Assembly: GCA_963930775.1 (NCBI GenBank)
Contig: OZ005701.1
Span: forward strand, 3,851,669-3,915,668
DNA: 64,000 nucleotides
From: Cliona cf. orientalis
Lineage: Eukaryota > Porifera > Demospongiae > Clionaida > Clionaidae
Direction of reading: 5' to 3'
This document shows, one piece after another, positions 362 through 55,500 of the stretch. The notes below the pieces were generated by a model. The model saw only the letters and a list, made by a program, of their open reading frames with translations, did not search any database and was not told the DNA's origin. Made by a program: the position numbers and the translations under genes. The stretch's first letter is position 1. Every line of letters begins with the position of its first letter.

Positions 362-1041
362 ATTGTGTACCTGTTGTTACAACTGCTCAGTTATGTATTC
401 TAACCTAGTACCTATAACACACATACATTTGTAGTGAACAACACATTGTGCAGTAATTTGTACTGTAACCTCAGTAACTGCAGTAACTGGTTACATTACA
501 CATACTTTTATCTTCAGTACACCCTATATCTAGCATGGTCTAATGCGTTCAAAATTTAACTCTCTCCTCACTGAAATGATCACCCCACAAACATACATAC
601 AAGTATGTATACATAATATAAAACCGCTTCCTGTACCTCGTGTATTCGGGGCTCGCTCATGATCAGGCTCGCCCCGAATAAAGCTCACCAAAAGATGCAG
701 CTCGTATCCATTCGAGTAAACGGCTAGAAATCAAGAAAAGGTAAGGAATCAGTACAAGTATCTACAGCAAAATTGAAGGCTAGGCCTATAGTCTGGATGC
801 AAGGACTGCTGTGCTAATTTCAGTAGCTAGCTAGCTGTACAATCACCGACTGTAGAGTAGCCTCAGTGGCAAAACTAGCTCCCGACGTACTGGAGATGAA
901 TCATGCATGCTCCTCATTCCTTGGTCTTTATAGTGACAATATAGACTGAGTCAGCTCAGCAACAGATAGTTGCTTGTAGCAGAGGGGGCATCCCAATCCT
1001 CCCCCTCTACTATTTAATAATATCACGAGCGAAGGCTCGCA

Positions 1042-1190
1042 GTCGCTATTGTCACATGGGTAACTACAGTCCAATTAGTCACTATTGTCACATCAGTAAC
1101 TATAGTCCCACTAGTCTCCACTGTCACATCAATAACTACAGTCTCAATAGTCACTACTGTCACATTAGTAACTACAATCATCACTAGCTC
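1042..1190. repeat. Short tandem repeat, about 45-bp unit, 3 copies
   Basis: Three consecutive units carry GTAACTAYAGTC, then TAGTC, then TGTCACAT, with a period of about 44-45 bp and a few substitutions. The array abuts a family C dispersed repeat on its right. Confidence 0.75.
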
Positions 1191-16900: not shown

Positions 16901-19900
16901 AGAGATCGCGCACCCATGTTAGTAATTGCCATGCACGTGTCATCATCAATTTTGTTAGTAGGTAATGGTCGTCAAGCAGAAATGTCACTATCCTACATGT
17001 AAGCCCCCTTCCCAGTGTTGCTCAAAGCTAGCATGGGGGTGTAATTGTGAGGTTCTACGGTACTATGCAACTTGTATTGCTAAATAGCGTACAAACTGGC
17101 ACAATACTGTTCCGGTTACAGGGAGAGGATATTGAAATGAAACTACAAAAAAATACATGTAAATCTATCTTCAGCTGATTTGTAGGCTTGCTTTGATGGT
17201 GGTGGTCTGTCCTTTTGGATGTGGTGCGTAAGGCCTTGCCAACATGCTTACTATCATGCATGGCAAAATTTTGGTTGCTGGATCCGGAGTCAGTTTAAAT
17301 ATATTGGTACCTGTGATGCCACATGAGCATATTATGCATTTGCATTGTAGATCACTATGGATTCATATTTTGCTAGTAGTAACCATTTTGCCAAATTTAT
17401 TGCTTAACCTTAACCAGCTGCTGTACAGTTTTACATGTACCTCTACTTTTTGCGACATGTACAGTGTACATGTACATGTATGTTATAACCATACAAGTTC
17501 CTTGATGCAGGTGGGAGATCTAGAAGACTCCAGTATTTACATTCGGATGAAGAGCAAAGCTGCAGCTGAAGTTGGCATTGCTGTGAAACATCTCAAGTTA
17601 TCAAGACAAGTATGCTAACTTGCTTGTACATATTATACATCATTGTTGAGTGCTTAAGGATACCGGTCAGAGTTCATATGAAATGTTTGCAACAAAATAC
17701 AATGTTATTTATTTCAACCCAACAGTGCATGCATCAAATAAACTGACTAGAGCCATATAGAGCTATATACATATAGTGAAATATCGTCGCTACAATAAAG
17801 GAACGAAAGATACTCTTCAGCAACTGACCTCCACACGTGGATCCACTTGACAGAACCGTGTGTCAATTTTAGTCAAGTTGACAGCCTAGATATGAAAATT
17901 TACGATACACGGTAGCTTTCATGACGGTGCGGGGCCATATGGAGCGATTTTCATTTGGTGGAAGATTCGACGCACGATTCAAAAGGCTACTTTGGATTGT
18001 CTCTAATGCAGTTATGGACAATCTTTATTGGTCACTTTTCCATGCGTGGACGAACACTCCCTGAATTTCGCTGCTCACTGTTAGCTGTCCTATCCTTTTA
18101 TATAGTCAAAGAGGTGCTGTATTATGTAAACATATACATGTATATGTGCATGTATATACTGTACCCTGCATGCACACTGAATGTATAATACATGCATACA
18201 TCATGGGCATGTCAGTGAAAATTAAAGGTACATGAATATGGCCTACATCAGCGAAAACTGAACCCCTCAAAAGTTTCCTGCTACATTGTATATGACAAGC
18301 ACAATAGCATAATACACAATGGGCATAATCACAAGTGTCAGTGAATATGTGATTTTGCCTCCTTTAAATTTCGCACTCCATTGTCGCGGTACGTTGTGGC
18401 ACCCATTTCACTATTACTGCTGACAAACATCGGTAAACATCGCGTACATTGTATAGTGTGCATGATTGCGTATGTCAACGATAATTATACTCACAAAATC
18501 ACATAAAAATTATGTTGAGAAATATACATGTACCTTGCATCTTTTATGTTGGGGTGCAATCTATGAATGCATGGAATTAGGAAAGTTCGGTCTAAGACAG
18601 ATTAATAGTCTAATTGTATACACACTAACATAAAATTTGTTGAGTAAGGATAATTTTTTGTAGTCCAGTCTACTCTACTACAGATATACATATACTCCTT
18701 GGTATCATTGATTAATGACCATCTACACATTAATGAGATATACATGTATGTAAAGCATGAAGTAACATTAGGTACAATTTCCTTTAAAGGGTGCAGGAAG
18801 AGGATAGGAAATGCATGGCCTTGGTGTACGTGTAACTAGTTAGTGTAACATTTACATGTAGGTAGTATGTGATGAATTGCCCCTTCAGATTTTAGGGGTT
18901 CCCGAAGCATAAAAAATTTGTAGCCATTTCCCATAAATATTACCAATCAATGTTGATCTCAAAAAGGTTTGTGAAGAAACAATATGGCAAAAATGGCTAC
19001 TCAGCCCAACGAGTAGTAGCCAAAATGGAACATACGTGTAGTGAATGGCTAATTTGGCTAGTGTGTAGGGAACCCGTGGATTTATACCACCATTGTGGTG
19101 ACCAAGTAATTCTGAGCGAAGTGAAGTTCCCACCTGGGGCCTGATTGCATTTGTATGGTTCCTCAAATTTTAAAATGTCACTTTCTCAGCCATCAGAGCA
19201 CCTCAGGTAAGCCTCTTCAGTTTTTTTTAGTTCTTCATGCATGATTGCTAATCTGCTACAAGATTCTCATTGTTACTAGATATTATATATATAGGCTACG
19301 TAGCGATTTAACTGGGACGAGCCTGAGTGAGCCCCATACAAACGGTATGTCTATGTGCGAATTCATGTACACCTTGTACAAATGTATGTGTATTACTATG
19401 GTACGTGTATGTCGGTCATCCTAGCATGCATGGCTCTATGGATATGAACACGAAACAGTCTAACCTGTATATAGGCTGTTCTATTTTAACGGATTGCAAA
19501 TTTATGCTCGTGCTATTGCCGCATTCCATGAACGCTGAACCATGCAAGGAGACCAGGTATGTTTTAGAGCCAATATTGGCACATTTCAGATAACCAAAAG
19601 TATACCATGAATGGCACATGTGTCACTGTGTGTGACTATTGTGCTACTTTCGGTAGAATTGATAAAACGCGCGGTTACCCTATAAGGAAGTGTGTGACTA
19701 TTGTGCCACTTTTGACTCAATTGGTAATTAGAGACATGACATACGTAAAATTTAATGATACATCTTCCAAGTTTGGCACGTTCTCATTTCAACCAAAAAT
19801 GGCAGTTATGGGTTTTTGGATTTGGATTTGTATTTGGGTTCAGGTTGTCATACCGTGTTCCTATTGACCATATTTATTTCTACCAATTTTTGTAGAATAT

Positions 19901-22900
19901 GATTTCAGCCATGGGTTTGGGTTTGGGTTTGATTGAAATAACTCATAGATGGCCAAAATTAATGACAAAATAGCTCATAAATGGCTGAAATCAAATTGTG
20001 CCAAATTGGCAGAACACGATTGAAATGCCAGTATCCCGTAGATGGCTGAAATCAAATTGTGCAAAACTTGGTAGCTTTGTTAACATCCCATAACTGGCAA
20101 AAGTTTGATATCATAATAATCTGCCATGTATACCAATTCTACCAAAAGTGGCACAATAGTCATACACTTCCCTATAGGGTAACCGATTACCAATTCTACT
20201 GAAAGTGGCACAGTAGTAGTCACATGCTTCCTTATAGGGTAACTGATTACCAATTTAACCAAAAATGGCACAATAGTCACACATAGTGACACTTGTGCCA
20301 TTCATGGCATGTTTTTAGTTATCCAAAATGTGCCAATATTGGCTCGAAAACATAGCTCGTCATCAATCATAGTCAACTGAACAGTGTGAGGAGCGGCTAA
20401 GAAGGTGATAGTATGGTCGATAGAGATCGATGTGCTGCTCACTGAGACTGTACAACACAGGCAGGTATTCCCCCAGACTCTAATAAAGGCTGGTATCTAC
20501 ATATACATGTACATGTATGGTTGGCATATAGACTCTACGTGGAGGGGCCTATAGGGGTGATACACGCGGTAACTACCTATGACTGTCATTGTCTGCTTGG
20601 ATATATCAATAGTCTTCACGATTCAGTCTCATTTACTACAGTCCAGCAGCTCAGGCTCACCCCAAACATGCTCTGCATGACATATATACATGTAGTTAGT
20701 GACCTATAGCCTAAGGTCAAGTCTATCTTACCTCCTACCTCTTCTGGAAAATACATGTACCATCATAGATAGTTGTGCTCTTCACATAATGTTGCTGGTG
20801 GTATTCTTTCAACATAGAGCTTTATCTCAAGTTAGTTATAACACAGCACACACTTGAATAGAGCCTTGATTATACTATAGCTGCCTTGGTCAGCTGCCTC
20901 AGTGACACAGAGTGTGTGCCATATGAAGGTCTATAGTGGATTTTCCTCATAAAAAATTGTGTGCCTCCTTTAAGGTTACAGGATGCATGGAAATTATCGT
21001 GCATGCCCAACATGTGCAATACATTCTGTGCACGTGACCAATAAATATTGTCCGTAATTGTGTTGGAGACAGTCAAAAGTAGCCGTTTGAACCGTGCGTC
21101 AAATCTTACAGCCAGTTGGCCCATGAACATTTTGCTATGAGTTTCTTATGATAGCAGTACGTACTTTATGGCCGGAGAAGCAAGTTTTCGCTATCCGCGA
21201 AATAAAAGCACGTTTTCACGACGTTCACATGCACACGCGTGATAACGGGGCGTGGCCATCGTCGTGAATGCCACTGCTGGATCGATCTAACAGCTGGTTT
21301 ATTTCACACCAGTTCATTTGTCATTAGCATCTACACAAATGCCTCTCATATGCGACTCTCGTGCCATTTTTTGATTTTCGCTAAACTCAAGTACAATCGA
21401 TCAATCGCTTGCTTGTTTTTCTCAACTTTTTCTCCTAATGAGATTTGAGCCATGGCGCGCATGCAGCAAGAGGCAGAGCCTAACGGATATTGTGGATGGA
21501 GCAACTCCATTCACGAAATCTTTAAAGATGGGTCTCCATGAAAATTGAATCCCTCTAAAATTTCCAGCCATACGGTATTACTAAAGCAGTGTCACGTAAA
21601 GCGTTTCCTCTGTAAAACTTATTTCTGTGGACTTACTGTATAGCAGGAAACTTTGGCAAGATTTTTAATTTGGCAATTTGGCGTATTCGGTATAGATCAC
21701 CAAATTAAAAACTCACCAATTGAACTTAATGCACACACACCTAAGACAGTAAGCATTGAAATTGCCAAATTTAAACTTGGTCAATATCTGGCCAGTGGAG
21801 AGCTTTTTTGCTAAGTTTAATGCTTGCCAAATTTACCCGCTGTAATATTGTGTTTAAGTTTATTCTCACATCCCCTGTACGCGTAGTACATGTACCTTTT
21901 GTCAGCTTCATAAACACAAGAGATACATGTATCTAAAGCAGTTTTTAGAGTCTCTACTGGCGCCTCTCCAGAGATGTCTAAGTAGATTTATGATTTAAGC
22001 ACCATCAGGTGTTATAATCTAGTTCAGCATGCATGACCAGCCTCTCACAGGAACAAGAAACTAAGGGTAGCTACAATGTACGTGCAGTCTAGTTCCAAGA
22101 TCTGAGAAGGTTATATCTTGGTTTGTGGGCTGAGCGAGGAAATTCCTGCACTGATGTGTGTCCCTAGTAGTTATTGTCCAGTTGCCAGAGAATATTATGG
22201 CAGTAAATTTGTGGACCTGAGTCCAAGGGCGTTGTCTAGTCCCTGGCAACTGGCATGCATTTTCTTTCTTAACAACTTTTACTGTAAATAAACTAGTCAG
22301 CAAAAGTTGTAGAGACCCTTGACTTCTCTGTACTGACTCAGCTTCCTTGAATAGTGCTTGATGAACGACAGTGACTGCCACGTTAATTATTTTTCTCTAT
22401 CTGCAAATGTACATGTACATGTAAGTCACAGCTAGCTAGCGAGCTGTCTTTTTGGAATTGGGTTTGTTTATTAGAAATGCCATATGGCTGTAAGATCGTG
22501 TGCACTAGCAGTAACTAATACATGTATAGCTTCCTACCTAGTGCCAATTAACTTGATTAATGTGCCTGCTCTCTGCGTTGTGTCTATGAAATACCAGTGG
22601 TATGTATGATGGGCACTGTGTGTTCAACGGTATAGCGAGTAGCACTTGTATGCTATGTAGCTGTTTTTAACATATTGTAAAGAAAGTGCATTTCTCATTC
22701 TTTCTGTGTGAGGGGGTGGGGGGTGGGGGTGCTTAATAACCAGCTAGAGTTTATGGTGTGCACAAAAACTTAGTGAAAAATTATCCCACAACCTTAGCAG
22801 GTTAAGAGTATACATGGTAAGGAGGGTCTCCTGAGATTTGTATACAAGAAAATGAGCTTTGAGTAGGAGCTATAGCTAATGAAATTAATGTACGTACTAC

Positions 22901-34900: not shown

Positions 34901-37900
34901 GAAACAACTCAAGGTACACTTGAATGATAATAGGCGCAGGAAGATTACCGTAGCCTTGTGATAGGGCCCACTGTGGATTGTTCACCCATTCCCGATTTTG
35001 CCTAGATTTCCTGCTTAAGTCGAAATGATGGGAATTCCTAATTGCAATGTTTTGGGCTAGTTGGGCAGGAATTCCCATTGGCTGATAAACTGAATATGTG
35101 CGGAAATTGGTTACGTACCCTACAATTAAGGTACAATTGCACTGCTGCCAAGTGATTACTATAATATGTCATGCACTATTTGCATCATTTACATGTATAC
35201 AATGTACAATAATGATCGCTGTAATATCACCCACCCCTTATTTGTGGACCCATTGCCCCCATTTTGTGACACATTCAGCTTTGGATCAAGGCACTATAGA
35301 TGAGATTTGCATGTAGAATTAAAGTTCACCATATCCCCAGTAGCTGCGTAGTGATAACAGAACACATGGCTTATGGTGAAGGTCATCTATATGGTGAAGG
35401 TCGTCTATATAATATCGTATAGCGGGATGCTTTCGAGGGAACCTTCACGATTTTACAACCACCCGCGAAGGTTTTCTTAGGCATGCCACACATTATGCAA
35501 TCATTGCATTTTGTGAAAGTTTTCTCCATGAAATGCTCCTTTCCTACCGATTTGTAAATGTTTTCAGTTTCCTGCTATATATATGGTAGTATGAATGTTG
35601 GATGCCTAAATCGTTGGGATGAGAGTGTACAAACTCTTGACTTGACAGAGTCTGAGACTGATTCTCAACCTCGATAGTGACAAATCTATATGCTTTTTTC
35701 ACAGAAATGAACTCTCAACAGCACAGTATAGATCGGTTTTGATGCTTGCATAGAACAGTAAGCATGCGTGCTATAATAAAATAGTATCAATACTTATAAT
35801 ATTGTATGTATGCTATGTATAGCGCTATGATTTATGTCGACTTAGAAAACTCGTTATAATGGCGGCACTTGTAACATGCCACTTCTAAAGTATTTGCTGG
35901 ATACATGTGCAAGTAAATTTATCAGCGAATTTTCACGTCTCAAAAGTGATCTGTCGAGGACCTGAATTTTCCTGTTAATACGACATAGGTAACCTCATAA
36001 TTACATCTTAAATTGCATTTATTGTCTAATAAATGCACAAAAATAAATTGCTACTGGGGATATAATTTGAGATCATGCCCACTTCACACCCATCTTTGGC
36101 AAGTTGATGCTGTAAGAGCTAATGTACAGGCTTAAGTTTGAGTGGTCCAGCAGTTACGTATCATGATTTGAGGATGTACATGTATACAATCATGCTTATT
36201 TCAACAAACCTGGAAATTGATCTGACTCTGATATCATGTTTATCCAGGTGGTTGGTCAGTGGTCAATCAGCTATCTTCCTCTCAGGGTCCAGGATCCTGT
36301 ACCTTCTGATATAACTATAGCACGCAGTCAGATGCCAAAAAAAATTATGGACTTGGCGAATGAGATTGGCTTACTACCTAGCGAGGTAGGCTCACGAAGA
36401 CTTTACCCAATCAATTATAAACGAACATTTGTTTCAGATTGAACCTTATGGTCTATTCAAAGCTAAGGTTTCACTGTCAGTGCTTGAGAGGCTCAAAGAC
36501 CATCCAAGTGGAAAGTATGTGTACTATTCAGAGAATTTTTGTCTTATAAATTATGGCTATAATATCTTGGGTAAGCACCCATGGGCGCTTAACACAACTC
36601 ATGGTTTGGCCTGCATGAGCCTTAACCCACGATATTTATTCCATACATTTTTATAGAAGGTGCTATATTGACCCCTTGAAATGCAGTACATGGGTGCTTA
36701 CCCGGGAGTGGGCACTCGCCCGGGACACTACGGTACATGTATATACATACATACATGTAGTTGTACTACTGGGAGTGAACATGTAGTTGTACTACTGGAG
36801 TGTGTATATATATGGTAGCATGCAATGACGTAAATCTTGCTACTGCTGTATACGTGTTGCCTGCCACCCCTACTTTTGTTTCGATTGTTTTTATATACTT
36901 ATTATTGTGGTTTTCACAAATGAGAGCATGCATGCATGCCCCTACTCAAAATGGAGCGCCTGAAACATGCATGTTTCATGCATGTTTCAGCACATTTCAT
37001 GCGCCCAAATCCAGAAAGTTCCATGCATGAAATTTGCAGTGACAATATTGAATAATTCGAAATTTCATGCATGTTACATGCATGATTCCTGAAACATGCA
37101 TGTAACATGCAGGGATTTGGGACGTTTTTCAGGTATGGGACATGCATGTTACATGAAAGTTCTTAGCTTAACAAGGATGGGCACACACACTCTCATCACC
37201 CCATCTACATCCTAAAGCTAGCTGGAAGAGAAAAAATCCGGGCAGCCACCGGGAATCGAACCCAGGGCCACTGGCTTGAGCCACCAGCGCTCTACCACTG
37301 AGCTACGACCACCCCTAGGCACCCGAACTCCCCCCTTCCAGCTTTAAGGGCGAAAGTCAACCCTATACCCAAACTACGTTCACGGAGTCTGCCGGGATAA
37401 TTAAATCACCAAAGCACAGAGCCCCAACAATAGTAATTACATGAAAGTTCTTAGCTTAACAAGGATGGGCACACACACTCTCATCACCCCATCTACATCC
37501 TAAAGCTAGCTGGAAGAGAAAAAATCCGGGCAGCCACTGGGAATCGAACCCAGGGCCACTGGCTTGAGCCACCAGCGCTCTACCACTGAGCTACGACCAC
37601 CCCTAGGCACCCGAACTCCCCCCTTCCAGCTTTAAGGGCGAAAGTCAACCCTATACCCAAACTACGTTCACGGAGTCTGCCGGGATAATTAAATCACCAA
37701 AGCACAGAGCCCCAACAATAGTAATTACATGAAAGTTCTTAGCTTAACAAGGATGGGCACACACACTCTCATCACCCCATCTACATCCTAAAGCTAGCTG
37801 GAAGAGAAAAAATCCGGGCAGCCACTGGGAATCGAACCCAGGGCCACTGGCTTGAGCCACCAGCGCTCTACCACTGAGCTACGACCACCCCTAGGCACCC

Positions 37901-40900
37901 GAACTCCCCCCTTCCAGCTTTAAAGGCGAAAGTCAACCCTATACCCAAACTACGTTCACGGAGTCTGCCGGGATAATTAAATCACCAAAGCACAGAGCCC
38001 CAACAATAGTAATTACATGAAAGTTCTTAGCTTAACAAGGATGGGCACACACACTCTCATCACCCCATCTACATCCTAAAGCTAGCTGGAAGAGAAAAAA
38101 ATCTGGGCAGCCACCGGGAATCGAACCCATGCATGGATTGGTGCCTAAATTTCATGCATGTTTCATGCATGTTCCATGCATGAAAAATATGGATATTTCA
38201 TGCATGAAACCTGCATGTTCCAGGTGTATTCCATGCGTCGTACAAGCATATTCCAAGCATGATACAGGCGTATTCCATGCGTGGTACATGTGTATTCCAT
38301 GCGTGATACAGGCGTATTCCATGTGTAGTACAGGCGCATTCCATGATACTGGGATATTCCATTCATGTGTGCATACACAGTACAGCTACAGGCATATTTT
38401 AATAACCCTTGGACAGAGTACTTGTACTTATACTTGCTGTAAGCATAAGGCACTGTGCTCCTGCATAGGCAAGTATGCTCTTTATAGATATGTAGATATT
38501 GGCTTTAAGGAAAACAGACAAAGCTTGTTGGCACCTATGGACATGCATATTATGCTGTAAGATATGAGATTTAGAGCAGCTCATACATAATTTTTATAGC
38601 AAAGGTATACACATTCTGAAAAACTACAGGTATATGAATATCTCAGCAGTGAGTTACTACCCACTGATTAGCAGCTAAACCATATTCAGTGTTCACATAG
38701 CTATATGGCATTGTATACGTACTGGCCCTCCCCCCCCCCCCCCCCCCCCCCCCCCATTTGGTCTTTTACATATTGTAGGATACTTCAGTAACTAGCACTG
38801 AGACCCCAAGGTGAGTTTGAGGACTGAAATAAGGGACCACATTCTTATCTGTAACCTTGATGTCTAGCCTGGGGGACAACTTTCAAACTAATATAAAGAA
38901 GCTCTTTTATTTACACTCTTTCAGCCAAATAAACTTACACCCACACTATAGTTATGGAAATCAATTTTACATGGGGTATACAAAACAATGTGTTAATTTA
39001 GTATGGCTCTCCAAGTTAGGCTATATAGTAGCTACTTACCTTGGAGCACTAAAGGTTTCACAAAGTCTCACACTTTCAAATCTGCAAAGTAGCTGCTTCT
39101 AATCAGTATGATGTAATGTGGAACTTCATGCATGTAACATGCATGGTTCAGGAGTGATAAAATCTCACGCATGTTTCGTTTCATGCATGTTTCAGGCGCT
39201 CCATTTTGAGTATGCAATTGGCATTACTGGCAAAAATTTACCCCTGGTAAAATTTGCACATATTACAAAATTTCATGTACATAATATTTGACGGTAAGCT
39301 TCTGTAATCTTTTTTTTGCACTTGAAAAAATTATATGAATCTGTACAATAAAATTTATTTTGTGAGCTGCAATTTATTCATGAAAATATTCACAGCAAAA
39401 CTAGCGTAGTAAAACCAATTCAGTCTGCTTAGTATGTACATGTGGACGTGAAGGAAATCACCGTGCGAGAAGAGTAATCCCCCAGCTGGAATAAAGATAA
39501 TTTCTTTATGTAACAGACACATCCAGACAAGCAGACTATTCAGCTTAACGAATATCGTTACAAACAATAGATGTTTCGACTGTATCATATTTGATTGCTT
39601 TGTGTTCATGTCTAATAGCCCTGACTAGCTAGCCCTTACACTGCTGTTTCACTCTCTATAAAAACCTCACTGATTTCTGTGCACTTCAGAATTGTATCTT
39701 GAACCTAAGCTATCTATTGTTGACTTCACTATCACGTGCTTGTCAATGAGTGTTTCAGTGGTGTCAGGAGTGGGATCATGTCGGATACAGATGAGACAGT
39801 GCCTACTGGTGGGGCTCAAGATGGCCCGGGTGCTGCAGCCCCAGTTACTGCTGCCACAGCGACGACTACAGTTCCTGTGAGAATGAGCCTCCGACCTCCT
39901 AGTCGATTCACTGCCAAGAGTGACTTCAATCTATGGTTCATGAGATTTGAACTATATACTGGAGAAGCTAAGATTCCAGATGGTGAGCGAGTGAAGGAAC
40001 TCCTTCCACTGTTGGACGATGAGCCATTCCAGGCTGTGAGTCAGATGGGCCTCGTCGGGAGTGCCAAGTACGCAGCCGTCAAGGAATGTCTGCGACTACG
40101 GTATGGTCAGCTCGGTACCGAACTTGAATGGCAATTCAACCTGCAAGGCAGAGTGCAGGAATCTGGAGAGTCCCTTGCAGAATTTGCTGGATCTCTGCGC
40201 TTTTTGGCAAGCAAAGCATTCCCAGGATGGACGGATGCACAACGGCAGGAGTTGGCACGCAACCAGTTCATTCAGGGCGTTCTGTCCCCTTCTATCCAAC
40301 TCCGCCTTGTGTGTGAAATGCCTGCGAGCCTGGAAACTGCCCTAGAAGAAGCTGGGAAGTTGGAATCCATTGAAGCCGCTCAGAAGCGATTACAGGTGTG
40401 TGTACCCAACAGAATGTCTTGGTGGTCCAAGAGTTAACGCAGGAGTGCTTACTTGGGGCAGATTTTCTAAAGCATCATGGCTGTGTGATCGATCTTCAAA
40501 GGCACCACTTGTTGGCTGGGGGGGGGGGGGGAAGCTGTCCTGCTACAATCTCTGACTCGGACGCCAGAAACACTCTCTGCCTGTCACGTTCAGATAATGG
40601 AAACGGCTGTGATACCAGAGCAACATGAAGTCCAAGTACAAGTGCAACTGTCAAAATAGGAAGGTGGCAGCATTGAAGACTTCACGGGGATAATGGAGCC
40701 AGAGCTGAAGTTCTCTCAGCGACATAATTTACTGGTTGCTCGGTCTATCTCGACAAGTAAGAATGGGTGCACCATTGCAAGATTGCTTAACCCTACTACT
40801 ACCCCTATTACAGTGCACCAATCAGAGAAAGTAGGAAGTTTCTATCCAGTGGAAATCACTGCAGTACACACTTTGGATGCGCCTGTTTCAAGGCCTCCAA

Positions 40901-43900
40901 TGTCCGAATCCATACCAGCAGAAGTAGATGCTGCCATTGCTAAAATGATGTCTGGAGTTGAAGATCTCGTGGGGGAAGAAATTGAGCAGCTAAGAGCACT
41001 ACTGGCAAGCTACATTGACATTATATCCACCTCGGATACAGATATTGGCAGGACAGATAAGCTACAACATGTGATCAATACAGAGGGCCCCCCAGTCAAG
41101 CAGGCACCACGCCGATTGTTATTCAATCGTCGCCAAGAGGTCAAGGAAATGGTGGACAAAATGTTGCAACAATAGATTATCGAGCCTGCTCATGGGCCGT
41201 GGTCTTCTCCAATTGTTTTTGTCAAAAAAAAAAAGATGGCTCCACCCGGTTCTGCGTCGACTTCCGGCGTCTGAACAGCATCACCAGGAAGGATGCACAC
41301 CCCCTTCCAAGAATCAATGATACTTTGATGCACTCTCAGGGGCGAGCTGGTTTTCCACACTAGACCTAGCAAGTGGATACTGGCAGGTCGAGCTGGCGGA
41401 GGCAGACCGAGAAAAAACTGCCTTCTCCACACCCTATGGCCTATTCCAATTCCGGGTAATGCCATTTGGGTTGTGCAATGCCCCAAGCACGTTTCAACGT
41501 TTAATGGAGCTAGTCCTAACTGGACTACACTGGAGCTCATGCCTGGTTTATATAGATGACATCATAATATTCAGCAGCACGGTTCAGGAGCACTTTCAGC
41601 GACTGTTGGAGGTGTTTGAGCGACTCAAAGTCAAGCCCAGCAAATGTCATCTCTTCAGAAGAAGTGTGGACTACCTCGGCCACATCGTCTCTAGGCAGGG
41701 AGTGCAAACTGACCTGGGGAAAACTGAAAGTGTCACCAACTGGCTACCCCCCAACAATGTCAAGGAGCTGCGACAATTTCTAGGGCTGGCATCGTACTAC
41801 CGACACTTTGTGAAAAACTTTGCCTCGATTGCAGCACCACTTCACCGTCTCACAGAAAAGGCAAAGACCTGGTCATGGACACTGGAGTGTGAACAAGCAT
41901 TCAATGCTCTCAAGGAGAAGCTAACAACTGCCCCAATTACTAGCATTTCCCCAATTTGATCTCGAGTTCACAGTGGATTGTGATGCCAGTTCAGAAGGTC
42001 TCGGAGCTGTGCTGTCCCAGAATCGTGATGGGAAAGAGTGTGTGATATCATATGCCAGTAGAACTCTATCAAAAGTGGAACGGAGATACTGTGCCACTAG
42101 AAAGGAGATGCTAGCCCTTGTCTGGGCCATCCGTCAATTTCGCCCATACCTCTATGGTAAGAAGTTCACTTTTCGCACTGACCACAATGCTTTGAAGTGG
42201 CTGTGCAGTTTTCATGAGCCAGAGGGCCAAGTGGCAAGGTGGCTAGAAAGCCTCGCAGAATATGATTTCACTGTACAGCATCGGTCCGGAAAACAACATG
42301 TAAACGCAGACTCCCTATCCAGACTGCCTTGTAAACAATGCGGATGGACTCTGTCCGTGGTAGCCACTCCCATTCAAAATAAAGAATGCCTTGCTATCTC
42401 CCCACCAGCAGTGACCAGCTGCGATTACCATTGGACACCTGACCTGGCTCAAATGATAGGGTGGCTGGGAGATATGACCCTACCCAAGCACTTCCCCAAG
42501 GGAAAAAGTCATGGCCTTCAAAGCCTGTGGGCACAACGACAACAGATTACCCTTCACAATGGCATTCTTTATCGTCGGTGGGAAGATGTTCAAGGAGGTG
42601 GCAGAGATAGGCATCTCCAACTTGTAGTGCCAAGGAACCAGGTTGATGTGATTTTGACAGAGATCCACAATGCATGCTCCTACTGGGGGACACCTTGGAG
42701 TGGCGAAAACACTGAACAAGGCCAGGAAAAGATTTTACTGGATAGGCCAGCGTAACGACATAGAGGAATGGTGCAGAAGATGTGAGATGTGTACTTCAAG
42801 GAAATCTCCACCAAGGCACCGCCATGCCCCTCTACAAATCGACATCACTGGTAATCCACTGCAGAGAGTTGCAATGGATATCCTAGGGCCATTGCCAGTG
42901 ACACACCAAAATAACAAATTCATTTTGGTGATTGGGGATTACTTCACAAAATGAACAGAAGCATACCCCATACCCAACATGGAAGCCAGCACTGTAGCAA
43001 GAGTTTTGTCAATGAATTTGTGGCTCGTTTGGGTGCCCCCGAGACTCGGCACACCGATCAGGGAAGAAACTTTGAGTCTGCTCTAATGAAGGAAGTCTGC
43101 CAATTGCTGGGAGTTACCAAGACTAGAACAACACCTTACCATCCGCAATCTGATGGAATGATTGAAAGATTCAACCGCACTCTGCTCTCTATGCTCAGCA
43201 CAGCAATCGAGGATGATGAAAAAGACTGTGGGACACAAAGCTACCATGTCTCATGCTGGCATACCGTTCCAGTGTTCATGAGGCAACCAAAGAGACGCCC
43301 TTTAAGCTGATGTTTGGGCGTGAAGTACGCCTCCCTGTTGACGTGATGTTCGGTCACCCTGCTCCACCTCCAAGCAGTTGCACTCAGTATGTGGAAAATC
43401 TTAGAAAAACACTGGAAAGCGCATACCAAAGAGTGAGACAACACCTGACTACACAACATCACAGACAAAAGCAGATCTACGATCGCAAAGTTGAAGGTGC
43501 ACCCTATGCAGTGGGAGACAAAGTGTGGCTACACTCTCCAGCACTACCGAGAGGACGATCAAGGAAATTTTTCCGCCCCTGGCAAGGCCCTTACATCATT
43601 ATCAAAATCATCAGTGATGTGGTATACAGGATAAAGAAAATGGAGCCACCCCACAGACGTATAGTGGTTCACTATGATAGACTAAAGCCTTATATTGGTA
43701 CTAAGCAGAGCTTAGAAAAGGGGCCTACCGAAGCAAGTTCAGAACCAGAGGAGGGAGAGCAGACGGAGGAAGACGATGAAGAGATAGACTACAATGTCGT
43801 TTACGTGCGAGAAAATATCCCAAGCTGTGACCAGTGTCCTGCAGACAGTAGGACCACGAGGGATTCCCAGCAACATGCCCTGCCCACTGAAATAAGCCAT

Positions 43901-46900
43901 CCGTTATGACATTCAACCCGAAATCGTAAACTTCCTGAAAGATATGGCAATCCAAAACTCCATTAAAGCATGTGGACATGGCTTTTGGAGGAGGGGGAGT
44001 GGTGTAACAGACACATCCAGACAAGCAGACTATTCAGCTTAACGAATATCGTTACAAACAATAGATGTATCATATTTGATTGCTTTGTGTTCATGTCTAA
44101 TAGCCCTGACTAGCGCTAGCCCTTACATTGCTGTTTCACTCTCTATAAAAACCTCACTGATTTCTGTGCACTTCAGAATTGTATCTTGAACCTAAGCTAT
44201 CTAATATTGACTTCACTATCACGTGCTTGAGTGTTTCATTTATATGTATGTGTGTATTGCCCGAGATCATTGTACTCAGTACAGTTTTGCAGTTACATTG
44301 TAAAGGCTCATTGCTATGCTAGCTATTAGTTGTTAGGAGAATCTTTAGTAAGCATTTGACCAGGGGGCGGATCCAGAGCCTCCAATAAGGGGGGTGCTAC
44401 ATTATATATTTGCGTGCGAAGCGCGCGTGAAATTTTTGGCCATGCCCCCTTTATACGAAATCACACCCACTTAATTGCCGTGAAGCGAGGCAACAACCTG
44501 AAAATGTGGAGAAATCAGTGAGTTTTTGTCTCTACAGACAGGTTTATTATAGCTAAATGTATGTCAGATCGAGGTTTTTTGGCTAGAAGGGGGGTGCTAG
44601 AGCTAGCCATGTCTATAGAAGCCTGTATGTTGTCTTGGCTGGAGGGGGGGGGGTGCTTGAGCACCCCAAGCACCCCCCCTGTATCCGCCCCTGTTGACAT
44701 AGCATAAAAAGCAAGCATCAATGGTGGGACGTTTTGGGTTGTGAGCCTGAGAGAATTGGGCATTGTTGATAATTATTGGACCAGTTCAAAGGGCACCTAA
44801 GAGCTGCAATATTATTAGAACGGTTCTGGAAATTTGCAAGAGTGCAAGCACTATCATTGATCAGTACTATTTTAATAGTGGCACTGATTATGTCAGTGGC
44901 GAAAACAACAAAATATGCTTCCTAGTTTCACTTCTTTTTGGAAGTTTCATTCTGATTGCTAAGTCATGCTCAAGTTGCTGGTATCAGAACCGTTGCCTCT
45001 CAGACTCCAGAAAGACATCGAAGCAGTAGGTAAGTGCCCATATAAGTGTAATTAAGTTTGGCATCACAACCGCTAGCTCGATTGATGATTTCATGATATC
45101 ACACCTTGCAATACGTTCCACCTAAAAATACTTTGTGTCTGGAAAGATGCCTTAAGGTTATACCGTACCGTCGCAAAAGAGGGCCCACTACAGAATATTG
45201 GCCCACCCCCCACTTTGGACTCAAGTTCCTGCTAAGGTCTAGTGTTTACTCGAATATGCGCCAGTGTGTAGCTACCCTTGAAAACGCAGCTCAAATAGCT
45301 GGTTTATGAGGACTGAACTTTGAATAGTTTATGTAAGATCGATAAATAACGTGCTAAACAGCTGTAAAATTAAGCGTAGCCAGGGACTATACATTATCTT
45401 TCAGAAAGATAATGTATAGTCCCTGGCCTAGCTAGCTTTATGCCACGTTAACGGCGATTGTACACGGCTAGCGATCGTAGCCACGCCCACTTAATACAGC
45501 TGCACTCAACGACACATGCTGAAGTATCGCGACCGCCCTTGCTCTGGATTTACTTGAATAAGGCTGAAACCAATAGTAGCCACTGCTACTATTCAAATTA
45601 TGAAGCTAGCGTGGGTAACTTACCTGGGTGCTCTTTCGCGTATAAACGCAATACTGATACCTGGAATATTGGCCCATCCCCCAATCTTAGCCCAATGTAA
45701 GGTGCACCACCCATGGGGCCTCTTTCGCGAGGGTACGGTATATGGAATACTGTTTCATGAATCATAGAATCGGTAGACTCTATAAGTAGGGATGGCCCGG
45801 ATATGCCATATAGATAAAAATGTTAATAACTCGGAACAACTTGAATTTTAAGATTTTTAACTTTCATATTCGTGATCTATGCCAAAATATCTATCTATCA
45901 AGCCCAAAAACATCCATAGGAACGATCAGGTACGCCTGAATCAGCCGTTTATAAGTTTGTAAAAAACGTGCATTTCGTCAATCTTCTTTCTTTCATCTTA
46001 TCCAGGGCTAACTCAAAACTGGCATGACTTCTAATCTTAGTTTAACAGTAAATACACTCCGTTTTGTTGAGCGTAGGTCTATGGCACGCTATTTGTTATC
46101 ATGAAAGTCGCTGAATTGTAGGTTTACACAGCGTGTTTAATTAGTGGGTGTGTCCGCCACGCCATTTTGTCATATAATGCGCATGCTCCGACAATGTTGC
46201 CATGGTGAAGTCATGTGACCAAAATCAGTGGCGCTCAAGCGCTTGCGCTGAGCTGGTGAACTGTCGAAATGCTGGCTACTATCAACAATAAACTTACTGG
46301 GCTATGCTTTCTAATAAGAAGTTTTACATTACTACTCGGCGTGAAACAGTCTTCTTTCAAATTTGTCAGCCAGTTGTCTTCAGGAACAAGTCGAGTTCAA
46401 GAGCTGAAAGGGCGTGGCTATCACGTCGTCTGATGTCTTCTAGCAAGAGTATTATAGAGGAGGAGGGCTTCTAGTACGGTAATGCGCACACTGGTTACCT
46501 ATACACTGGTTACCTGCAGCTATGTCTCGAGAGTCCCACTGATGCATATTCAATTGTATATGATGCACTGAATGAAGACATCCCGTCTAAAGACTGATCA
46601 GTTCAGTGCACTTGACAGGCCGAGAATAGATCCCATTCCTCACTCTATACAAAATTCCTCACTGATGCCTTCTTGAAATTCTATCATAAAGCCCATTCGG
46701 ACGTGTGTTCAACCCTCTAGTAAATTTTGTACTATTATTGCTATTGACCACTGTGAAATAAATCACATGACCTTTGTACTATTATGATTGTGGAAGTAGA
46801 ATGCACAAAGTTTAATATTAGCCTTTATGGTACCAGATTGTCTCAGGTCAGCACCATCAGTGTTACCATGCACTCCGGGGTCTTCTGCATGACAGTCCCA

Positions 46901-49522: not shown

Positions 49523-52500
49523 TGTCTGTTATCACACCAGCTGCTACATACCTGGTTTATACGATGCAAACAAGGTGCCATTAGGCTTTTTATGGCATCT
49601 TCAAGGTATGAATTGTGTGGATTTCATTGAAAACGCTTTGTTCAAAAGTTCTGGCAACGGCCTTCTTCGCTTCTTGACGAGCTCTCGATCGATGAAAGGG
49701 ACAGCGATGGCTTCATTTCAAGATTTGTAGTGTGTAGCTCTAGCGATAGTTCTTGTAACTAAACTGACTCATCACAGATCACAGTAGGCTATCAACTACG
49801 CTTCTTGGCTTTACTTTGTACTAGATCTGCTGATCTGGTATGCACGTGGTACTATTACCTAATTGCATGCAATCCGTATTAGTGCATTCTAAGGCTTGTA
49901 ATTACTCTCTACAACTACACTGTACAAGTAACAGTGTTGCTTGCAATATGCAGACTAGCAATAGCTATTGTGCCAAGGGTTTTGCACTATAGTGCTTCAT
50001 TTGTTAGTTCTGGCTAGAATTTTTACTTTGCTTAATTATTGTCTGTAAATATACATTTTACAGACAGAGAGGGGGGGGGGCTTGTATACGCAAGATAAAA
50101 CTACCTTTGCAGGAACTTGGGCTAAATATGCAGGTGGGGGGCGTAATTGCTGGATTGTATGGTAAATAGAACGTCGATCGAGTATCACGCGGAGTTAGCG
50201 AATGCGTGGCAATACGAACTCAATAGCAACCTCCTCAGTGGTTGCTATATATATTTACCATAGCATAGAACGCAATAAAAACCATCATAAAATAACAAAG
50301 TCTCCTGATTCACCCCAGACTGAGAGCACAAGTATAGAACTGTTTGTATTGTAGTGCACATAGGTACAACAGTTGCCACCCCTGAACAAGGCTTTTACAA
50401 TGGTCATGTCTGACAGCCTACAGTGCATCGATCTACTGAAATCCTGGCTTCTTCTCCACTTCTAGCAGATAGCTGAAGGCCTAATAATTCCAAACATACC
50501 AAGAGTCACTTGCTATATTATTATTATATGCTTACATTTTTACATGTGGATATCAATTAAGGTCCAAAAATTTACAAACAATCGCTAATAAATACACTGA
50601 AACAAGCTAATCTACAGATACAGCATGGCAGCATCATGAGACACTAATGGAGTTCCCTGAGGCTCAGTAAAGGTCCTATGAAATGAACACTTGCCTAGCC
50701 AGGCCTAATAGTCCTGCTGAGTGTATGCGTGCAGATGTATTTGAACATACAAATTTAAGTCATGATATTATGTTGTATACAAAATGCTTATATTGCTCAT
50801 GGTATGGAGCTATGTTTTAGAGCCAGTATTGGCACATTTCGGATAACCAAAAACATGCCATGAATGGCACAAGTGTCACTATGTGTGACTATTGTATCAT
50901 TTTTGGTTGAAGTGGTAATAGGTTGCCCTATAGGGAAGTGTGTGACTACTGTGCCACTTTTGGTAGAATAGGTAATATCGGTTACTCTATAGGAAAGAGT
51001 GTGACTATTGTGCCGCTTTTGGCTCAATTGGTAATTAGATCGAGACATGATATAAATGATACATCTTCCAAGCTTGGCACTTCCTCATTTCAACCAAAAA
51101 TGGCAGATTATTATGGTATCAAACTTTTGCCAGTTATGGGATGCTGACAATTAAAACTACCAATTTTAGCACAATTTGATTTCAGCCATCTACGGGTTAT
51201 TTCGCATTTCAATCGTGTTCTCATAGTACCAATTTTGGCACAACTTGATTTCAGCCCATGCATTTCAATCATGTTCTGCCAATTTTGGCTCAATTAGATT
51301 TCAGCCATTTATGGGTTAATTTTGTCGCTAATTTTTGTCATCTGTGATAGTTATTTGCATGGCATTTCAATCAAACCCTAACCCAAAAACCAAATCCGAA
51401 CCCAAACCCACGGCTGAAACCATATTCTACCAAAATTGGCAGAATTAGATATTATGGTGAATAGGAACATGGTATGACAACCCAAACCCAAACCCAAAAA
51501 CCCATAACTCTGGCAAAAATTTGATATCATAACATTCTGCCATTTTGGGTTGAAATGAGAATGTGCCAAATTTGGAAGATGTATCATTTATATCATGTCT
51601 CTAATTACCAATTGAGCCAAAAGCGGCACTATAGTCACACATTTCCCTATAGAGTAACTGATTACCAATACCAATTCTACCGAAAGTGGCACAATAGTCA
51701 TACATATCCCTATAAGGTAACCGATTACCAATTCTATCGAAAGTGGCACAATAGTCACACTCTTCCCTATAGAGTAACCGATTACCTATTCTACCAAAAG
51801 CGGCACAATAGTAACACTCTTCCCTATAGGGTAACCTATTACCACTTCAACCAAAAATGGCACAACAGTGACACTTGTGCCCTTCATGGCATGTTTTTGG
51901 TTATCCGAAATGTGCCAATATTGGCTCTAAAACATATATACCTGTGGTATGAGAATAAGAAGCGGAGGTATTAAGGGAAAAAGATGGAGAGAGAGAGAGG
52001 GATCTCGAGGGAGAGGGGGCCCGGGATCGATAGAGAGATCGAGAGTGTAGGTAGGAGAAGAGAGATGTACTCTGCTGTACACATTCACTAATATGCCTAT
52101 GAAATTTGCAACCATACCATAAATTAAAGACTAAGTGCATGCCACCATTGAAACACCCGTACTTAAGGGTACAGCTATCAGGAATGTGATCTAAGGATGT
52201 GATAATAAAAGGTGTCAAGTGTGAGGCTTGGTGAGAGTGAATCAGATTTGGAACCCTAGTCAATATTTAAGTTAATTATTGATTATAATTGCTATCCCTT
52301 CCTTGATCTTCCCCTTAATCCTGTATCCTTCCCTTGTCACTACGCTGGCTTCTTTCCATTGCATGTTGTGACTTGATTGTTTAACATGAACTGCTAGTGC
52401 ATTATTACTGTCATTGTTCTTCATACGCCGTGTTATAGTAGTAGTATTCTCGCAGCTAGCAAATATCCCCAAGGCCTATTATATTGTCGTTGCCTGGTTA

Positions 52501-55500
52501 TGCAACTAATGCCATGCAACATGCCGAGGGTTTGATGCTCTAGAGAGCTCTATTTTGCTGTAGTCTTATGCGGCTACAGATGAGATCGGGAAAGGCCTAT
52601 ACAAGTATATGGAGTGTACAGACCGAGTCAACCTTGGACCACTACACTCAGCTCCATATTGCTATGCTGTGGATAACCACCCTACTCAAAATGGAACACC
52701 TGAAACATGTATGTTTCATGCATGTTTCAGCACATTTCATGCGCCCAAATCCAGAAAGTTCCATGCATGAAATTTCCAGTGACAATATTGAATAATTCGA
52801 AATTTCATGCATGCTACATGCATGATTCCTAAAACGTGCATGTAACATGCAGGGATTTGGGACGTTTTTCAGGTATGGCACTTGCATATTACATGCATGG
52901 ATTGGTGCCTAAATTTCATGCATGTTTCATGCATGTTCCATGCATGAAAAATGTGGATATTTCATGCATGAAACCTGCATGTTCCAGGTGTATTCCATGC
53001 GTCGTACAAGCGTATTCCAAGCATGATACAGGCGTATTCCATGCGTGGTACATGTGTATTCCATGCGTGATACAGGCGTATTCCATGCGTAGTACAGGCG
53101 CATTCCATGATACTGGGATATTCCATTCGTGTGTGCATACACGGTACAGCTACAGGCATATTTTAATAACCCTTGGACAGAGTACTTGTACTTATACTTG
53201 CTGTAAGCATAAGGCACTGTGCTCCTGCATAGGCAAGTATGCTCTTTATAGATATATAGATACTGGTATAAGGAAAACAGACAAAGGTTGTTGGCACCTA
53301 TGGGCATGCATAATTATTATGCGAGATTTAGAGCAGCTCTTACATAATTTTTATAGCAAAGGTATACACATTCTGTCCCCCAAAAAATTACAGGTATATG
53401 AATATCTCAGCAGTGTGTTACTACCCACTGATTAGCAGCTAAATCATATTCAGTATTCACATAGCTACATGGCATTGTATACGTTCCCCTCCTCCCCCCC
53501 CCCCCCCCCCTTTTGGTCTTTTACATATTGTAGGATACTTCAGTAACTAGCACTGAGACCCCAAGGTGAGTTTGAGGACTGAAATAAGGGACCACATTCT
53601 TATCTGTAACATTGATATCTGTAATGCTAGTTGGGGACAACTTTCAAACTAAAGAAGCTCTTTATTTACACTCTTTCAGGCAAATAAACTTACACCCACA
53701 CTATAATTATGGAAATTAATTTTACATGGGGTATACAAAACAATGTGTTAATTTAGTATGGCTCTCCAAGTTAGGCTATATAGTGGCTACTTACCTTGGA
53801 GCACTAAAGGTTTCACAAAGTCTCACACTTTCAAATCTGCAAAGCAGCTGCTTCTAATCAGTATGATGTAATGTGGAACTTCATGCATGTAACATGCATG
53901 GTTCAGGAGTGATAAAATCTCATGCATGTTTCATTTCATGCATGTTTCATGCATGGTATATCTGTCACACGTGTTTTATACTTTCATGCATGTTCCATGC
54001 ATGTTTCATGCATAAAATACACTTTCATGCATGTTTCATGCATGTTTCATGCATGAAAAATGCATGGAAGTAGCTTCCATGCATGAAACATGCATGAAAG
54101 TATATTCCATGCATAAACTATCCTGAAACATGCATGGAAAACGCATGAAAGTCGCTTCCATGCATGAAATGTGCTGAAACATGCATGTTTCAGGCGCTCC
54201 ATTTTGAGTAGGGCATGCACTTGTTCTTAACTACAGTGCTCCAAGGAAAGAGAGCAAAACTTTTGATTTTTTACTAATATGGGTATAATTTTTCACTCTT
54301 AAGTTTTCAACCCACTACACTCAATTGGTATGTACGTAGGTTCAGCAATATGTCCTCTAACTATGATTAAATTATAATCAAACTATTTGAGGTCAATATG
54401 GTTTTATGGCTTCACCAGTGAAGAGATCCTTCTAAAAAAGCTTTAGATAAATACTTGAGAACCACAGTGAGATACACAACCATATGTGGCACCAATGTAG
54501 GGCTACTAAGGTAGAAGCCTCCAATTAAGTTTCAACTAAATCTCCTCAGTACTTCTTCAGAAAATTCAAATTTTGTGTATTTTTGGCAGCCATTTTGTTG
54601 CTGTTTGCTTTAGATCCATATAAGGACATTCCTGTGGTTTAGGGGTCCACGCTCTAGCTAGGGTATGTTAGATAAGTCCCCAAAGTTTATATATGTCAAG
54701 TCTGAACTCCTATCTTTATGCATGAATGAAGTTATGAGTCAAAATAGGCAAAAATATTTCAAAATTATATGAAAATCGGAAATATATTTATATTACGTAA
54801 AACAAAATGGCAGGTAATTAGGGTGGGTGTGTCATATTTTGTCAAATTTGACCTGGGATGTCATCTCAGAAGGACATGTTATTAGTGTCAGGCCTCAATA
54901 ATGAACAAACAACAAATAACATAGAATTTGATTTTTGACCCAATCTAAAAAGTTTTGCTCTCTTTGCTTGGAGCACTGTATATTCACAGAATACCAATGC
55001 AAAGTGATTAGACTAGCCAGAAATAATTATATATTAATGTCGTCATTTGGTGTTAAAATAAACTTGTCCAATAGCTTGTTCAAGTGTGAATGGAACGGAT
55101 CTAGTGAAAAAATGGAGGACGTGTTAGCGACGAAGAAATAGCAATCGATGTAGTCTCATCCCCAGACCCCTGTACGTGTGGCGAGGTCTGAGAGCGAGAT
55201 ATCCAATTATAGGTTTATGGTTGTCAGCTCTAGTGTCGCTGTGCTCCGAATAATACAAAATGATCGCCATCAGTGTAAGTCTGTATTACCTTTTTGCTCT
55301 TGGACGCTGTTCATGATGTGGTAGCCACACTCTTTGATGAATGTGGAAAGAGTTGTCTGGAGCTCTAATGCGTGGCCGTTCTGTTGATTAGAACGGGCGA
55401 GAAAAGATGAAGATGTTCAATGAATTAAATACTTAAACTTGCCATTCAGGCTATTAGAATGTTCAAATAATTAGAGCAAGTACGGTAATTAAGTTCTATT

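Follow-up and report, generated by a model that had tools for sequence, protein, structure and literature searches.

What moves a 288-bp unit that carries a tRNA-like fold, and how does such a unit come to lie in tandem? The question is raised by a 64,000-nucleotide stretch of the genome of the sponge Cliona cf. orientalis (assembly GCA_963930775.1, contig OZ005701.1, positions 3,851,669 to 3,915,668 of the forward strand; hereafter the window), in which a head-to-tail array of these units splits a foldback element. A Penelope-like element (PLE) of the same genome has the 5′ leader, the tandem junction and the target in common with the unit, which, judged by these three features, is a non-autonomous satellite of that element.

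An array inserted at CATG

Tandem Repeats Finder places the array at 37149-38129 (period 288, 3.4 copies, 99% matches), in agreement with the three full, nearly identical units and one partial unit described in a first-pass annotation of this DNA. The host element bears inverted ends of 31 bases each at 36943-36973 and 39182-39212, so that the label 'foldback' holds and the insertion does lie within such an element. Comparison with a paralog near 52.7 kb that lacks the array, which had been proposed as the pre-insertion site, bears that proposal out. The empty site reads ...TTACATGCATGGATTGG, whereas the occupied site reads ...TTACATG/AAAG on the left and ...AACC/CATGCATGGATTGG on the right (slashes mark junctions), and the CATG noticed earlier at both ends of the array is thereby identified as a 4-bp duplication. 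The unit junction is written CATG/TAATTACT, or CAUG/UAAUUACU in RNA letters. The 288-nt unit has no coding capacity of its own among the listed frames of at least 150 amino acids (stop to stop), the only such frame that touches the array running from the partial unit into the host element.

A dispersed family with one fixed end

The exact 25-nt fixed end of the unit occurs at 195 places in the genome (216.8 Mb, 149 contigs; reversed-pattern control, 0), and the same exact 25-mer has 0 and 0 matches in IMG/VR and GTDB contigs. Across the first 40 loci, identity to the window's unit is 98.3-99.8% in the best alignments; several multi-unit arrays equal the majority sequence throughout, among them one of 7.86 units with zero differences from it. 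By its copy number and identity, the unit is a dispersed, young mobile element. Since it recurs at many loci in arrays of different lengths, the array in the window is real and not an artefact of one assembled locus, an accident for which the first-pass annotation had allowed.

We read 80 loci, the window's own included. These comprised the 40 best-scoring of 244 candidates by whole-unit similarity, a choice that favours long arrays; 20 loci with the exact 25-mer, taken from 100 listed of the 195 places; and 20 chosen by a pattern that bars A before CATG, at each of which 501 bases were examined. Because loci were chosen in three ways, the length counts describe an uneven sample of insertions. 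Length and junction counts omit 9 of the 80 loci (L013, L014, L034, L049, L050, L057, L064, L075 and L083) because their ends are missing or imprecise, because they are duplicated or carry later insertions, or because the array extends past the stretch examined, and a second short insertion in L041 was left uncounted.

The arrays have one constant end. At 39 of the 40 best-scoring loci this end lies within a few bases of CATGAAAGTTC; it is the tRNA-sense 3′ end, ...GAACTTTCATG, and the other (5′) end stops at scattered points of the unit. Array lengths range from 24 to 2265 nt (n = 71), with 20 arrays of at most one unit, 5 of 289-300 nt and 46 longer; 18 hold at least two units. All 37 counted best-scoring loci exceed one unit, and 20 of the 34 other loci are at most one unit long. 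Sub-unit insertions and insertions of 1.1-1.9 units are both frequent, and the latter indicate that what was inserted often exceeded one unit from the outset. Truncation points cluster at unit positions 3-4, 68-71, 135-137 and 169-171 (clusters picked post hoc and uncorrected for multiple tests); the cluster at 3-4 may reflect CATG homology, and the one at 169-171, just before the tRNA, might mark a transcription start.

CATG recurs at the truncated junction. At offsets of -3 to 0 it is present in 29 of 71 arrays, as against 11 of 243 controls taken at a distance of 100-400 bases (P = 4e-13), and within -4 to +2 in 40 of 71. The array end and CATG often have letters in common (72 arrays, in a comparison that included L034, later found to be split by an insertion). 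The flank beyond the fixed CATG is Y-A at 40 of the 56 loci that were not picked by flank, the background in the window being 435 of 1180 CATGs (P = 4e-7); the 20 flank-biased loci gave 10, making 50 of 76 for all loci pooled (L014, L049, L050 and L057 omitted). The fixed 3′ end, the free 5′ truncation and the CATG duplication together look like target-primed retrotransposition, not unequal exchange.

Some of these loci have a further history. The L034 array, at ~680-890 and again ~600 bases further, is split by a TTAA-flanked insertion with short inverted ends, piggyBac-like by eye. L049 and L050 hold older arrays (~94%) with an identical left flank at two places, and these were therefore probably copied inside a larger mobile element.

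A Penelope-like partner shares the leader, junction and target

A genome search for GIY-YIG domains gave 20 places. In one family the GIY-YIG match (25.2 bits, above cut-off) lies N-terminal to a reverse transcriptase (RT), which is the Naiad-type order of domains. The RVT_1 match of this family reaches 27.5 bits, below the cut-off of 29.6, and starts at profile position 56, with YIDD recognized by eye. On contig C1 the GIY-YIG match lies in L091 and the RT match in the adjoining piece L096, and open frames of 1006 and 1009 amino acids contain the GIY-YIG match at two places. Three copies show 99.7-99.9% identity over 1.74-1.80 kb and diverge 2-4 bases beyond ...ACCTACTGAATTTTCATG. The element ends at ...GAATTTTCATG, with 89 different flanks among the 100 matches listed (control 0), under a pattern that overlooks copies ending elsewhere and those whose ninth flanking base is T.

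Three features connect this element to the unit. First, a truncated copy lies upstream in tandem at two of the three PLE copies, joined by GAATTTTCATGTAATTACTTAAC, and the tandem junction of the element, GAAYTTTCATGTAATTACT, is nearly identical to the unit's own, GAACTTTCATGTAATTACTATTG (18 of 19 letters). The junction pattern occurs at 99 places in the genome, 93 of them belonging to the unit and 6 to the PLE, with no third family; at five of the six PLE junctions a GIY-YIG match follows after exactly 547 bases (by subtraction), and the sixth is without a listed match. Second, alignment of the unit's 5′-terminal 54 nt to the 53 nt at the start of the PLE gives a score of 33, which none of 500 letter shuffles equalled (mean 8.3, maximum 14.5), so that satellite and partner have in common a 54-nt leader as well as the junction. 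Third, the target preference is the same: Y-A follows CATG in 61 of 89 unique PLE flanks (P = 7e-9 versus background), and the preferences of PLE and unit compare at P = 0.85.

The recently active family with GIY-YIG N-terminal to RT is represented at L091, L092, L093 and L096-L101. At L099 (912-998, minus strand) a hammerhead HH9-like match of 30.1 bits (gathering score 52) stands upstream of the start of a PLE copy. In another GIY-YIG family, two copies diverge at ...CTATCTCA, without CATG. L090 holds a second Penelope-like frame, with a C-terminal GIY-YIG (32.4 bits) and an RT part seen by eye only.

The tRNA-like module

Each full unit carries the tRNA-like fold that the first-pass annotation had recognized: ARAGORN makes three minus-strand calls, and all three score above the gathering score of 29 under the Rfam covariance model RF00005 (Table 1). 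The B box is GGTTCGATTCC. As had also been observed, a T6 run follows the fold, beginning on the minus strand 3 nt beyond the tRNA 3′ end in every full unit, and the anticodon loop, GGCUCAA, has G and not U at base 33, before the anticodon. Four of the seven acceptor-stem pairs are G-U, and the module has neither the U33 nor the strong acceptor stem of a functional tRNA gene. Module and T6 together look like a complete RNA polymerase III (Pol III)-type gene carried within the unit. Its Pol III transcript would measure ~85-90 nt and, stopping at T6, would hold neither the leader nor the 3′ end, so that it could not serve as the template for insertion.

The module is a separable cassette, because a related module with its T run (unit position 126 to ~210, 82-86%) is found alone in L055, as an inverted pair at 735-821 (+) and 961-1045 (-) in another repeat. 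In older arrays, diagnostic changes at positions 97, 123 and 132 fall in stems and keep the pairing (by reading, at three sites). The whole unit is predicted to fold as a rod (linear z = -3.0 versus dinucleotide shuffles), and its predicted circular fold gives z = -3.5 versus 100 mononucleotide shuffles. No Rfam ribozyme was found in the unit by cmscan down to E 10, and a hammerhead core scan that allowed one mismatch returned one match, without GAAA; in these scans the unit shows no hammerhead, the ribozyme by which retrozymes are known. The module may serve in processing, as a promoter or in protein binding, or may be a passenger.

Young arrays descend mostly from single units

Variants within arrays bear on the template. 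Counting only positions that two or more units of an array cover, we found 38 variants, of which 10 were in all covered units, 27 in one unit and 1 in two of four units (56 of the 60 loci L009-L068; L014 skipped, L049-L051 set aside, and the last 12 bases per array ignored). Every covered unit of L055 carries 56A>G, 179delC and 191insT, changes that no other array compared has; L053 repeats 76A>T across its units. Two shared variants are likewise uniform within arrays, 164C in L009, L010 and L048 and 197A in L032 and L036. When units were shuffled among arrays, 5.5 mixed arrays were expected for 164C as against 0 seen (no shuffle in 5000 was as low); for 197A the figures were 4.0 expected and 1 seen (P = 0.02).

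This all-or-one pattern indicates that one unit was copied repeatedly, and that young arrays each descend mostly from one unit and acquired private changes later. The repeated copying most likely proceeded by rolling reverse transcription of a circular RNA, to judge from the distribution of variants. Rolling amplification had rightly been named among the possible origins of the array. A homogeneous source array would also fit, but would need the same bottleneck at an earlier stage.

A proposed cycle and its competitors

The probable explanation, in our view, is a non-autonomous retroelement with this unit as its monomer, mobilized in trans by the N-terminal-GIY-YIG PLE through the whole of the following cycle, circle included; the Penelope-driven cycle minus its circle step we regard as very probable. 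Arrays would be transcribed on the tRNA-sense strand, and unit-length RNA would be made and closed to a circle. The PLE protein would bind the leader common to unit and PLE, and its endonuclease would cut genomic CATG, preferably before Y-A, the preference being recorded in the flanks and the chemistry presumed. The CATG 3′ end would then pair with CAUG at the unit junction and prime reverse transcription at the end that is fixed in the arrays. The enzyme would run round the circle for anything from a fraction of a turn to ~eight turns, stopping anywhere, and the second junction would close on the other CATG end, often through shared letters, leaving the 4-bp CATG duplication. Rolling copying that stops anywhere would leave the 3′ end fixed, the 5′ end free and the units near-identical, as the arrays display.

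Several observations weigh against this cycle, some of them against its insertion steps. One of the 40 best-scoring loci, L014, is without the fixed end. Far junctions have no CATG even within -4 to +2 in 31 of 71 arrays, and 4 of the 40 CATGs counted in that interval are the unit's own; Y-A is already the background flank of 37% of CATG sites in the window. The 3′ ends of unit and PLE share GAAYTTTCATG only, and beyond it the likeness is not significant (55 of 500 shuffles do as well across 60 nt, and 381 across 90 nt), so that the weight of the satellite assignment rests on leader, junction and target.

Other points concern the circle. We infer the circular RNA, and any array transcript, from the genomic sequence, and neither Rfam to E 10 nor the hammerhead core scan revealed a ribozyme or other device for making unit-length RNA. 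Six of the 27 one-unit variants are a single deletion in L030. The array in the window has 99C>T (at a CpG) in units 2 and 3 and not in unit 1, and in L010 the change is confined to unit 2, as a linear multimer template would also allow; 197G>A, which every covered unit of L032 and L036 carries, occurs in one of the three units of the window array. Among older arrays, the units of L049/L050 (one duplicated array) differ at many sites, and L051 has several changes common to its units and others in one unit only; such differences come from either age or mixed templates. The mixed older arrays, and a count of variants by events, weaken the circle step.

The best-surviving competitor retains the same Penelope-driven insertion and has as its template a linear multimer, transcribed from a tandem array by Pol II, or by Pol III past T6, with an internal start at CAUG. 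Internal initiation on tandem-locus RNA is published for the Anolis PLE (PMC11167929), and two of the three PLE copies here form partial tandems joined by the same junction. In both the window array and L010, 99C>T is present in unit 2 and absent from unit 1, and the L049/L050 units differ. A linear template should, however, often have copied a source unit's private changes in register, whereas the variants are all-or-one, and for L055 every unit of the source would have to carry the same three rare changes. Furthermore, if the leader is needed downstream of the start, as the Anolis data suggest, a template of N units would give at most N - 1 and arrays would shrink, yet 18 of 71 have at least two units. 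We consider a linear multimer possible, at perhaps one chance among several, and favour the circle as template.

How a circle would be made is a matter for speculation. The unit could be a retrozyme without a ribozyme, its hammerhead replaced by the tRNA-like module. The tRNA-processing enzymes RNase P or RNase Z would cut the tandem transcript once per unit, tRNA ligase would close the circle, and the Penelope-type enzyme would reverse transcribe it, rolling, from CATG breaks. We hold this detailed version to be doubtful, a little more so than the linear multimer.

Unequal exchange, or slippage, could have enlarged an insertion of a single unit or 1.x units, and would homogenize the units inside an array. 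The first-pass annotation had offered unequal exchange as an origin, and as the main source it fails on the fixed 3′ end, the free 5′ truncation and the copies under one unit. It leaves the first junction unexplained, and insertions of 1-2 units truncated at many phases are common, with lengths that range upward from below one unit; several multi-unit arrays match the majority sequence throughout, which would have allowed little time. We judge this origin improbable. Integration of extrachromosomal circular DNA, or a rolling-circle (Helitron-type) DNA transposon, would also produce tandem units with one fixed end, and is more improbable again: CATG is duplicated where no duplication would be expected, the orientation (tRNA-sense 3′ end fixed, 5′ end truncated) suits reverse transcription, and junction, leader and target recur in a GIY-YIG retroelement of this genome.

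We give next to no credence to an ordinary tRNA-derived short interspersed element (SINE) moved by a long interspersed element (LINE) and tandem by chance, which would account for the tRNA-like A and B boxes, the fixed 3′ end and the 5′ truncation, but not for a tRNA module in mid-unit with T6 directly after it and hence a Pol III product without the 3′ end, for a fixed end without an A-rich tail, or for leader homology to a PLE (LINEs were not searched for). Such a SINE would have a 5′ tRNA head and a Pol III transcript spanning the element; the module here reads as internal, with T6 3 nt after it. Of the earlier label 'SINE-like', then, the tRNA-like unit with its T6 run stands, and a LINE-driven Pol III transcript is not supported, since the T6-stopped product would lack leader and 3′ end.

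Features of the window

Table 1. Coordinates of the array, its host element and the paralogous empty site (window positions; minus is the tRNA-sense strand)
Feature	Position	Strand	Basis
Host foldback element, inverted 31-base ends, split by array	36943..39212	.	sequence reading; paralogy
Unit 1, adjoins fixed 3′ end	37152..37439	-	Tandem Repeats Finder and unit-by-unit comparison
Unit 2	37440..37727	-	Tandem Repeats Finder and unit-by-unit comparison
Unit 3	37728..38015	-	Tandem Repeats Finder and unit-by-unit comparison
Partial unit 4, 5′-truncated within T arm of tRNA-like module	38016..38129	-	sequence reading
CATG, fixed (tRNA-sense 3′) end; left copy of 4-bp target duplication	37152..37155	.	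empty paralog
CATG, truncated (tRNA-sense 5′) end; right duplication copy, CA common to array	38128..38131	.	empty paralog
5′ leader, homologous to PLE 5′ start, unit 1	37386..37439	-	alignment versus shuffles
Same 5′ leader, other full units	37674-37727 and 37962-38015	-	alignment versus shuffles
Unit junction GAACTTTCATGTAATTACT	37432..37450	-	18/19 letters equal to the PLE's own tandem junction
tRNA-like module (ARAGORN Glu-CTC, G33), unit 1	37240..37312	-	ARAGORN; Rfam 44.7 bits
tRNA-like module, unit 2	37528..37600	-	ARAGORN; Rfam 47.4 bits
tRNA-like module, unit 3	37816..37888	-	ARAGORN; Rfam 47.4 bits
T6 run, Pol III terminator-like, unit 1	37231..37236	-	sequence reading
Further T runs	37519-37524, 37807-37812; seven bases at 38095-38101	-	sequence reading
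Host-element paralog without array, empty site near 52892	52683..54210 (ends as in the first-pass annotation)	.	paralogy

Two other kinds of repeat occur in the window. A Gypsy-type retrotransposon, recognized by eye, lies beside the array at 39724-43909, with direct repeats at 39509-39742 and 44003-44229. Two inverted-repeat elements, at 50807-51936 and 19551-20361, are made of 57-60-bp tandem repeats.

Comparison with known systems

tRNA-derived SINEs have tRNA-like A and B boxes. The unit differs from them in that its module is internal and followed by a terminator-like run, in its tandem arrangement and in its PLE ends. A literature search of titles and the starts of abstracts, covering open-licence papers, found no PLE-moved element with a tRNA-like module.

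The nearest tRNA-bearing parallel is Sm-alpha of schistosomes, which is SINE-like, as is Sj-alpha; of the 2,368 tRNA-Gln-TTG genes predicted in Schistosoma mansoni, 2,342 were assigned to SINEs resembling Sm-alpha (PMC2770079). Unlike the unit, Sm-alpha and Sj-alpha carry a hammerhead ribozyme, and the accessible part of PMC2770079 names no PLE partner for them.

Among PLEs, the Anolis element (Poseidon) begins reverse transcription internally on its RNA and requires RNA from the beginning of its frame, and its description (PMC11167929) reports, as here, partial tandems, pseudo-long terminal repeats (pLTRs) and internal initiation of reverse transcription. Poseidon is described there as cutting AT-rich ATT, with a start site not homologous to the cut DNA, whereas here the target CATG is also the RNA start site. 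In Adineta, Penelope families resemble the present one in their microhomology at the 5′ junction and in movement in trans, and their pLTRs can move unrelated sequence in trans (PMC3846280).

The partner of the unit differs from the Anolis and Adineta PLEs in domain order, with GIY-YIG before RT. Non-autonomous partners are known in the Naiad/Chlamys clade. Its PLEs, reportedly described by Craig et al. in 2021, are said to have permuted domains, with an N-terminal GIY-YIG and then RT; the partner resembles them in its domain order.

Functionally, the comparison is with metazoan retrozymes, which have a type I hammerhead. In Cervera and de la Pena 2020 (PMC7229834), RNA circles are proposed to lead to tandem complementary DNA, and PLEs are named as a strong helper candidate. 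Retrozymes, like the unit, are non-coding tandem units of similar size, without long terminal repeats, whose RNA is highly self-paired (in the unit, by prediction). The unit differs in having a tRNA-like module and no hammerhead that we found, and in a helper identified through the shared leader, junction and target; its fixed CATG start and free 5′ truncation point to target-primed copying. Retrozyme duplications, when present, exceed 4 bp in the same text (PMC7229834), and that of the unit is 4 bp. The unit works like a retrozyme, but without the defining ribozyme it is not one.

These findings bear on how PLEs make tandem copies and on which enzyme moves ribozyme-bearing circular RNAs. Helper and satellite occur in one genome and have leader, junction and target in common, and the ends and internal variants of dozens of young insertions record what appears to be one unit copied repeatedly by target priming. 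This makes it possible to test rolling reverse transcription by a PLE directly, on a 288-nt template. If the tRNA-like module does stand in the place of the retrozyme's ribozyme, circle-making need not be autocatalytic.

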